Source: Nocardioidaceae bacterium (GTDB lineage: Bacteria; Actinomycetota; Actinomycetes; Propionibacteriales; Nocardioidaceae). From it: 64,000 nucleotides of DNA. The position numbers and the translations under genes were made by a program. Numbering within the stretch: position 1 is the stretch's first letter; the number at the start of each line of letters is the position of its first letter. The stretch is taken from contig WQZX01000001.1 in the NCBI GenBank assembly GCA_009780515.1, forward strand, positions 1 through 64,000, written 5' to 3'. Shown one piece after another: positions 19,696-22,170 of the stretch. The notes below the pieces were generated by a model. The model did not search any database. It had not been told where the DNA came from and saw only the letters and a list, made by a program, of their open reading frames with translations.

Positions 19696-20474
19696 CGCGC
19701 GGTCTCCTCGACCGCGGCGGGCAGCCACGGGCGGTCGCCGGAGACGCGAGCGGTCAGGAAGTCGACGTAGCGGCGTCGTACCGCAGCGGCGTCGTCGGCG
19801 CCCGGCACCGGCTCCAGCCACTCGTCGGGGACGTCCGCGACGACGGCGGCCAGTGCCTGGGGCGTCAGCCGCGCGGCCAGGTCGGAGTCCTGGGCGACCG
19901 CGCGGGCGGCGTAGCTGCGCAGGACGTGCTCGCCCGCGTCGTACGGCTGGACCGCGAAGCGCGCCGGGTCGCCGGGACCGCCGGGCCAGGAGTAGTGGAA
20001 GTAGAGCGAGGCTCCGTGGTCGATCGCGTGGAGAGTGCCGCGCCAGAGCAGCATGTTCGGGTTGCGCCAGCTGCGGTCGACGTTCGCGGTGAAGGCGTCG
20101 AGCCACAGGATGCGGCCGGCGAGGTCGGGATCGGGCTCGGTCGCCGCGTCGTACCCGAACGAGCCGGGCAGGAAGTCGATCCCGAGGTTGGTGCCGGCGC
20201 TCGCGTTGAGGAGGTCCTGCACCTCCTCGTCGGCCTCGTAGCGGGCGATCTGCGGGTCGAGGTCGAGCACGACCTGGTCGGGTGTGGGTACGTCGAGCAC
20301 CCGGGCCAGACCGGCCACGACGACCTCGGCCACGAGGACCCGCAGGCCCTGTCCGGCGCCACGGAACTTGCAGACGTAGGTGCCGAGGTCGTCGGCCTCG
20401 ACGATGCCCGGCAGGCTGCCGCCCTCGCGCAGCGGCGTGACGTACCGGATGACCCTGACCGCGGGAAGGCTCAC
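19692..20474 (-). CDS. HipA-like kinase-domain protein
   Basis: GTYVCKFRGAGQG, NVDRSWRNPNML, HAIDHGASLYFHYSW; GTG start; overlaps the DUF3037 start by 4 bp. Confidence 0.8.
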   Translation of the reverse strand: MSLPAVRVIRYVTPLREGGSLPGIVEADDLGTYVCKFRGAGQGLRVLVAEVVVAGLARVLDVPTPDQVVLDLDPQIARYEADEEVQDLLNASAGTNLGIDFLPGSFGYDAATEPDPDLAGRILWLDAFTANVDRSWRNPNMLLWRGTLHAIDHGASLYFHYSWPGGPGDPARFAVQPYDAGEHVLRSYAARAVAQDSDLAARLTPQALAAVVADVPDEWLEPVPGADDAAAVRRRYVDFLTARVSGDRPWLPAAVEETAR

Positions 20475-21322
20475 GCGATCGTGTCCTCGGCCAGCCGCTT
20501 GCGCTCGGCCTCGACGTCGAAGTCCGCCTCCGGCCAGTCGAGGTCGAGCTCGAGGAGCGTCTCGCGCAGGAGGTGGCCGATCGCCAGGTTGCGGTACCAC
20601 TTCCGGTCGCTCGGCACGACGTGCCAGGGGGCGTAGCTGGTGTTCGTGCGCTCGAGCACCAGCTGGTACGCCGCGGCGTACTCGTCCCAGAGCTGACGCT
20701 CGTCGAGGTCGCCCGGGTTGTACTTCCAGTACTTGTCGGGTCGGTCGAGCCGCGCCTGGAGGCGGTTGCGCTGCTCGGCCGCCGAGATGTGGAGGAGGCA
20801 CTTGAGCACGACGATGCCGTGGTCGGTCAGCCGCTTCTCGAAGTCGTTGATCGCGGCGTACCGGCGGTCGATCTCCTCCGGCGACGCGAGCTCACGGACC
20901 CGGCCGATCAGGACGTCCTCGTAGTGGGACCGGTCGAAGACGCCCAGGTAGCCGAGCTCGGGCACGGCCCGCTCGATGCGCCACAGGAAGTCGTGGCCAC
21001 GCTCCTCCTCGGTCGGCGCCTTGAACGAGGTGATGCGCACGCCCACCGGGTCGACCAGGCCGACGGTGTGCTTGAGCACGCCGCCCTTGCCGGAGGTGTC
21101 CATGCCCTGCAGGACGAGCAGCACCCCGCGCGCCGTGTCCCGCCCGCGGTGGGCGAACAGCCGCGTCTGCAGGTCGAGAAGCTCCGGACCGAGGTCGGCG
21201 AGCGCCTTCTCACCGTCGGCCTTGTTGCCGTCGAAGTGCGGCGTGCTGTCGGTCGCGAGCCGACCCAGGTCGACCGACCCCGCCGGCACCCGGAGTCGGT
21301 CGGAGAGGTGTTTGAGCGCCAT
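20471..21322 (-). CDS. ppk2: Polyphosphate kinase 2 (PPK2) family protein
   Basis: VLLVLQGMDTSGKGGVLKH (Walker A), FDRSHYEDVLIGRV, DRPDKYWKYNPGDLDER; overlaps the HipA-like start by 4 bp. Confidence 0.92.
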   Translation of the reverse strand: MALKHLSDRLRVPAGSVDLGRLATDSTPHFDGNKADGEKALADLGPELLDLQTRLFAHRGRDTARGVLLVLQGMDTSGKGGVLKHTVGLVDPVGVRITSFKAPTEEERGHDFLWRIERAVPELGYLGVFDRSHYEDVLIGRVRELASPEEIDRRYAAINDFEKRLTDHGIVVLKCLLHISAAEQRNRLQARLDRPDKYWKYNPGDLDERQLWDEYAAAYQLVLERTNTSYAPWHVVPSDRKWYRNLAIGHLLRETLLELDLDWPEADFDVEAERKRLAEDTIA

Positions 21323-21331
21323 GCCCGAAGG

Positions 21332-21499
21332 CTAGTGGTTCGTCCGTGAAGTTGTTGGACGGTTGGGGTGCTCCGGGTGCGCGCATCGCAAGGCGTCGGC
21401 GCGCCGCCATACCGGGCCGTCTGACAAGCGTCGGCAACGCAGCGAGGTGCGTGCCCGGGGTGCCTCAACCGTTCAAGAACTTTGCGGACGAGCCACTAG
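21332..21499. repeat. 168-bp long inverted-repeat (MITE-like) element with CTAG at both ends
   Basis: Arms CTAGTGGTTCGTCCGTGAAGTTGTTGGACGGTTGGGG... and ...CCTCAACCGTTCAAGAACTTTGCGGACGAGCCACTAG are reverse complementary over about 58 bp (45 identical, 11 transitions, 2 transversions by hand alignment). Confidence 0.75.
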
Positions 21500-21507
21500 G
21501 GCATGGC

Positions 21508-22038
21508 TCAGCGTGCGGAGGCGATCAGGCGACGCATCGTGCCGAAGACGCCGAGGGCCCCGAAGATCACGAAGAAGATGGCGTTGTGGCCGTACGTCCG
21601 CAGCACCGCGCCGCGGAAGAGGTTCTCGCGGATGAAGGCCGTGCGGGACAGCGGGATCTGGGCCTGGTGACTGCCGTAGAAGGACCAGAGGTCGCTGGCC
21701 ACCGCAGCGAAGAACGAGAGGGCGACGCCGACGATGATGAGCATCAGCAGCGCGGGCAGACCGCGCTTGGGCGGCGCGCCCGCGCCCTTGAGGTAGAGGG
21801 CGGTCGCACCCGCCGCGATCACGAAGCTGCTGATCCCGGCGATGAAGCCGATCCGCCACAGCACCACCGTCAGCACGATTCCTCCGACCACGGCGCCGAG
21901 CGCGGCGACGAGACCGACCAGCACGTTCTCCCGGGCCGGTGCGGCGAGCTTCGGAGCGAAGGTCTGCGGACCTGACGGCTGTTGGCCGAATGGCTGGCCG
22001 TACGGCGGCGGCGGCGTCGGTGTCGAGTCGTCGGACAT
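21508..22038 (-). CDS. Integral membrane protein, unknown function
   Basis: MSDDSTPTPPPPYGQPFGQQ... Pro-rich N-terminus and several hydrophobic helices. Confidence 0.65.
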   Translation of the reverse strand: MSDDSTPTPPPPYGQPFGQQPSGPQTFAPKLAAPARENVLVGLVAALGAVVGGIVLTVVLWRIGFIAGISSFVIAAGATALYLKGAGAPPKRGLPALLMLIIVGVALSFFAAVASDLWSFYGSHQAQIPLSRTAFIRENLFRGAVLRTYGHNAIFFVIFGALGVFGTMRRLIASAR

Positions 22039-22170
22039 GGGGACCCCCAGGGGAATCGAGATGGGGCGTCGCTTCAACCCAGACCGAGCTCGGAGTCGCG
22101 AGACGCAATTTCGTTGCGAACCATAACCACCTCCGGCGCTGCCAAACCACCGCCTGCCCAGGGAGGGCCC

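Follow-up and report, generated by a model that had tools for sequence, protein, structure and literature searches.

The common view of MITEs in bacteria is that they are inverted-repeat remnants of insertion sequences. The element considered here, found in a window of 64,000 nucleotides from a Nocardioidaceae bacterium (the whole stretch of DNA analysed), can be compared with several described systems. The IS630-derived RUP of Streptococcus pneumoniae is likewise a short, non-coding MITE with a TA duplication and IS630-family ends (PMC2229807), whereas the present element folds into a hairpin over its whole length, has a core which also occurs on IS5-type ends, and displays a wobble bias on one strand and an orientation opposed to the replication fork. 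The ERIC/IRU and Correia/NEMIS elements resemble it by description, being 100-200 bp long and intergenic with TA at their ends, and once transcribed they fold into long stem-loops, which affect mRNA differently according to orientation (PMC2229807); they differ in their hosts, and in the present family covariation, wobble bias and replication orientation have been measured. Hairpins are also found in the REPINs/RAYT and in IS200/IS605, and the orientation of IS200/IS605 and of Tn7 is linked to replication (PMC5371812). Unlike REPINs/RAYT and IS200/IS605, the present family combines a TA duplication with DDE-type inverted ends, and it is the other template strand that carries its well-folding strand. 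In Streptomyces, IS112 and further IS5-family elements have nearly identical first 15 end bases and a flanking TA, as here, but encode a transposase and are without the hairpin core.

The inverted repeat which the preliminary description placed at positions 21332-21499 is present, and the mobile unit could be refined to a MITE of 162 bp at 21335-21496, between TA direct repeats. This unit was delimited by its arms and core and by a length and TA layout equal to those of a filled and empty site pair, and its plus strand is the one that folds into the long hairpin. The TA dinucleotides at 21333-21334 (left) and 21497-21498 (right), each within a CTAG, are identified from the sequence as the target duplication, which has been shown for a Streptomyces relative. 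The arrangement cTA...TAg, an IS630-type TA duplication in CTAG, flanks the window copy and many other copies, and CTAG is the preferred target of IS630 elements. The left terminal inverted repeat (21335-21372, plus strand) resembles IS630-family ends when the family arms are compared with the ends of the IS630 loci L114 and L112, while the right one (21459-21496, minus strand) was placed by arm measurements and comparison with IS630 ends. Between them lies a conserved asymmetric core (21374-21456, plus strand), defined by alignments and pair counts, which contains wobble pairs and an A.G mismatch. Its 5' side reads GGGTGCGCGC-A-TCGC-AAGGCG and is followed by the apical loop and a 3' side of CAACGC-A-GCGA-G-GTGCGTGCC. 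Counted from this core, most copies from Nocardioides and Kribbella have arms of 48 and 46 bases. The 162 bp element contains no coding gene and so no transposase; it is an IS630 derivative rather than an IS630 element.

Evidence of mobility comes from Streptomyces plasmids. One copy, in plasmid NZ_CP108024, has inserted into the end of an IS3-family element and reads GATCC-TA-[162 bp]-TA-TGGGG. Two other loci (L295, L296) carry the empty site, GATCC-TA-TGGGG, without the insert, and in two more (L293, L294) this empty site recurs, accompanied by one or two substitutions close by. This filled and empty pair demonstrates the insertion of 162 bp with duplication of TA. A joined-flank search returned no empty site for the window copy, the congeners being too diverged, and for the plasmid copy L150 the sole match was L150 itself. 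The ends of IS630-family (DDE_3) elements in two relatives (L114, L112) share 29 of 38 bases with the family arms, compared with at most 20 of 38 for the best of 128 control 38-mers. The Streptomyces arms match the ends of annotated IS112/IS5-family elements at 21-22 of 38 positions, with the first 15 bases almost identical. The arms are thus of the IS630 type in Nocardioides and Kribbella and of the IS112/IS5 type in Streptomyces, and since the IS630 and IS112/IS5 insertion sequences compared do not contain the hairpin core, a single core is combined with two kinds of ends. A search of the element's own genome gave no IS630 or IS5 transposase. The TA duplication and the arms matching transposon ends identify the element as a MITE: it is short, non-coding and dispersed, a Streptomyces member shows the duplication, and its inverted repeats are common to an autonomous element. 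REPINs and IS200/IS605 are characterised by single-strand ends and no target duplication, whereas here TA is duplicated. One IS112-family element (L154, NZ_CP108380.1 129281-134306) was observed between cas2e and cas6e of a plasmid-borne type I-E CRISPR-Cas system of Streptomyces albidoflavus.

A BLAST search with the 168 bp sequence gave about 14 strong matches in the same genome, one of them 96% identical from end to end, and matches in 28 of 59 relatives. The preliminary description had proposed a search for further copies in the genome, and 22 were located there with a covariance model built on the core (R1, E <= 1e-5). Searched within the phylum, this model matches 80 of the 121 genomes from the genus, 70 of the 297 from the class, across 19 genera, and three further genomes beyond the class. 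When named genomes were scanned with a pattern, the family was recovered in Nocardioides, Kribbella, Streptomyces, Kitasatospora, Actinacidiphila, Microtetraspora and Sphaerimonospora. Plasmid records gave no match to the window copy, but 57 of them, nearly all from Streptomyces, match a Streptomyces copy; phage records did not match the element. No Rfam family scored above its gathering score, the best sub-threshold match being to a generic hairpin (53.4 bits versus 268), and text searches of the freely accessible literature turned up no account of the family or its core. A family that is spread through Nocardioides, Kribbella, Streptomyces and other actinobacteria has apparently been undescribed so far. 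Two incomplete copies were observed: L014 (G000:C14:32570-32600) is a short hairpin made up of the outermost arm parts only and looks like a central deletion derivative, and L004 (G000:C57:5057-5161) is a half element with one arm and the loop, its other arm being absent beside a stop codon.

The predicted RNA fold of positions 21332-21499 reaches -123.6 kcal/mol on the plus strand (z -12.0) and -89.7 kcal/mol on the minus strand (z -7.3), and none of 200 shuffled sequences folded as well on either strand; the near-continuous plus-strand hairpin, far weaker on the minus strand, that had been noted from the letters is thereby borne out. Under DNA parameters the corresponding values for the 162 bp element are -59.4 and -43.0 for the plus and minus strands, respectively. 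A symmetric, strand-neutral alignment of the arms of the window copy, leaving out the core, comprises 49 pairs, of which 39 are Watson-Crick, nine G.T, none A.C and one a transversion, in agreement with an earlier hand count over 58 bp (45 matches, 11 transitions and two transversions). The one-directional arm differences recorded in that count recur across copies: G.T exceeds A.C on the plus strand in all 59 copies drawn from the genus and its order and oriented by the asymmetric core (424 versus 64 in total). The bias extends to the outermost 12 bp of the arms (74 G.T versus 7 A.C) and to subfamilies with different arms (G358, 90/1; G065, 108/4; G469, 51/0), where copies within a subfamily are related and the wobble counts are not independent. 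It is weaker in the copies provisionally named Frankia-like (180 G.T versus 73 A.C), and a few single copies do not conform. Other mismatches are similarly uneven, with 156 G.G and 146 A.G on the plus strand versus 16 C.C and 23 C.T, counts that fit folding of RNA or of DNA, and selection for the plus hairpin or against the minus hairpin. In an alignment of 92 distinct sequences, pairing holds in 91% of pair cells and 29 of the 32 pairs have changed on both sides, although this alignment (A3) was fitted to the covariance model, by which the pairing counts are inflated. Its covariation score is 0.534, compared with 0.157 for shuffled and at most 0.107 for slid alignments, and helices 2-4, which form the core and apical stem, covary strongly. 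In MAFFT alignments of 12 subfamilies, 107 compensatory states were counted, and single changes at paired consensus sites gave 58 G.U versus 32 A.C. Four wobble pairs of the core are the majority state.

The family is also oriented with respect to replication. With the origin set at dnaA and the terminus taken half-way in circular chromosomes, the plus strand is opposed to fork movement in 121 of 150 copies from nine genomes of five genera, so that the leading-strand template mostly carries the plus strand, and on the lagging side it is the poorly folding strand that becomes exposed. In genome G057, inferred to be Kribbella, 34 of 35 copies lie against the fork, while one Streptomyces genome has no orientation bias (5 versus 6, i.e. 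5 of 11 against the fork). The orientation is independent of that of the flanking genes: where these diverge or converge, 22 copies versus 3 lie against the fork in the two genomes examined. This is the orientation expected if strong hairpins on the lagging template are lost; a replication-coupled insertion bias may be an alternative source. How replication contributes to the retention or insertion of hairpins becomes directly testable through this bias.

Two origins had been offered for the one-directional differences, selection for a structured plus strand and a strand-specific C-to-T bias; the former is supported by the covariation, the skew in the paired arms and the constancy of the bias under replication reversal, and the latter is not. 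A strand-specific C-to-T (and A-to-G) mutation bias acting without selection would account for the window copy, where every transition fits C-to-T or A-to-G on one strand, but it is a very improbable source of the family-wide pattern. The arms are skewed towards G over C (+0.18) and T over A (+0.19), whereas the skew is nearly absent from the loop (+0.01 and +0.06) and about zero in the flanks, and the counts at unpaired sites (15 C>T versus 16 G>A) show no C>T excess. Compensatory changes are present, and the wobble bias does not reverse with replication orientation, reversed copies retaining 20 G.T versus 4 A.C. A match of the bias to general replication-strand skew is not supported by these same copies, in which it moves with the element. 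The usual leading-strand skew towards G and T, if shared by these genomes, would even oppose the observed bias, as the plus strand is mostly lagging-strand sequence. That the hairpin is instead a vertically inherited regulatory RNA of the neighbourhood (a leader, attenuator or terminator) and not a mobile element might be suggested by the start codon that follows it after 12 bases and by the stop codon close to it. This is scarcely credible for a sequence with a 96% identical copy elsewhere in the genome, whose copies have mixed gene contexts and orientations and for whose relative an empty site is known; for the family as a whole it is already refuted by the dispersed copies and that empty site.

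The element is probably a non-autonomous transposon (MITE) in which TA-targeting, DDE-type ends surround a hairpin core and whose folded strand is selected, most likely as RNA. A transposase encoded elsewhere would act on the ends as double-stranded DNA and move the element, while the G.U or G.T pairs, the other G-containing mismatches and the compensatory changes point to selection on the folded plus strand. The selected form would most likely be an RNA hairpin with a protein-binding core, with a single-stranded DNA hairpin as the alternative, and copies placing a strong hairpin on the lagging template may disappear or never become inserted. The reasons for preferring RNA are that specific wobble pairs, the A.G mismatch and an internal loop are retained in the core, and that the plus strand is not where single-strand DNA elements place their active strand. 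This preference is modest, and the pattern of tolerated mismatches would be alike for both forms. Selection for a single-stranded DNA hairpin at replication forks, serving transposition or its control, is considered rather unlikely, although the orientation tracks replication and not transcription, as is known for IS200/IS605 and Tn7 (PMC5371812), DNA folding favours the plus strand too, and the prevalent plus-strand mismatches (G.T, G.G and A.G) are also among those better tolerated in DNA. Against it, the strand that folds well occupies the leading-strand template, contrary to IS200/IS605, the ends and TA duplication indicate DDE double-strand transposition, and A.C is not specially depleted once base composition is corrected. 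The wobble bias and the fork-opposed orientation would be explained together by a DNA-only by-product, in which the arms are kept alike through one transposase, differences weakening the lagging-template hairpin (A.C on the minus strand and hence G.T on the plus strand) are favoured and no folded molecule has a function. This is improbable, since the core and apical stem, which are not transposase ends, covary strongly and keep majority wobble pairs, and copies lying with the fork show the same bias, unlike what in-place evolution would give. In the preferred reading, with selection on the folded strand, the covariation, the one-strand wobbles confined to helices and the wobbles of the shared core indicate a job for that strand itself, unlike the usual view of MITEs. 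The same core stands on two kinds of transposon ends, and it is tentatively suggested that it is a mobile functional motif, RNA or single-stranded DNA, which travels on the ends of two or more transposon families (IS630 and IS5), has spread across Actinomycetes and is oriented in a replication-coupled manner.

The window copy lies between two minus-strand genes supported by an open reading frame and a gene call and named by eye, a polyphosphate kinase 2-like gene (20471-21322, 283 aa), named from its sequence, and a gene for a hypothetical membrane protein (21508-22077, 189 aa), whose stop falls just past the element. None of the 58 copies with called neighbours is inside a gene, the calls being approximate and derived from a simple codon-position score. 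The sequence TANNNT is present at 33 of the 72 ends that retain an intact TA, and a start codon follows 12-14 bases after 28 of these 33 ends versus 4 of the 39 without the T. The 28 ends probably lie in -10 boxes of leaderless genes, and the window copy is placed in this way: at its end a candidate -10 hexamer, TAGCCT (21329-21334, minus strand), is re-formed, followed by six bases and the ATG of the polyphosphate kinase 2-like gene. With such boxes a frequent location, the family is a natural probe of promoter rewiring in Streptomyces and its relatives. A mobile-promoter role was considered, and an inspection of the element ends by eye found no -35 box; read-through as the source of a plus-strand RNA is not favoured, as the orientation to neighbouring genes is mixed and leans towards antisense. 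Other ends coincide with a TAG stop codon, which is made whole again by the element's initial G. Copies L031, L032, L034 and L035 represent one arm type of Nocardioides (AGTGGTCACC...) in which 2-3 bases separate the end of the element from a start codon, and a GGAGGTGA-like sequence in this arm type could act as a ribosome-binding site.
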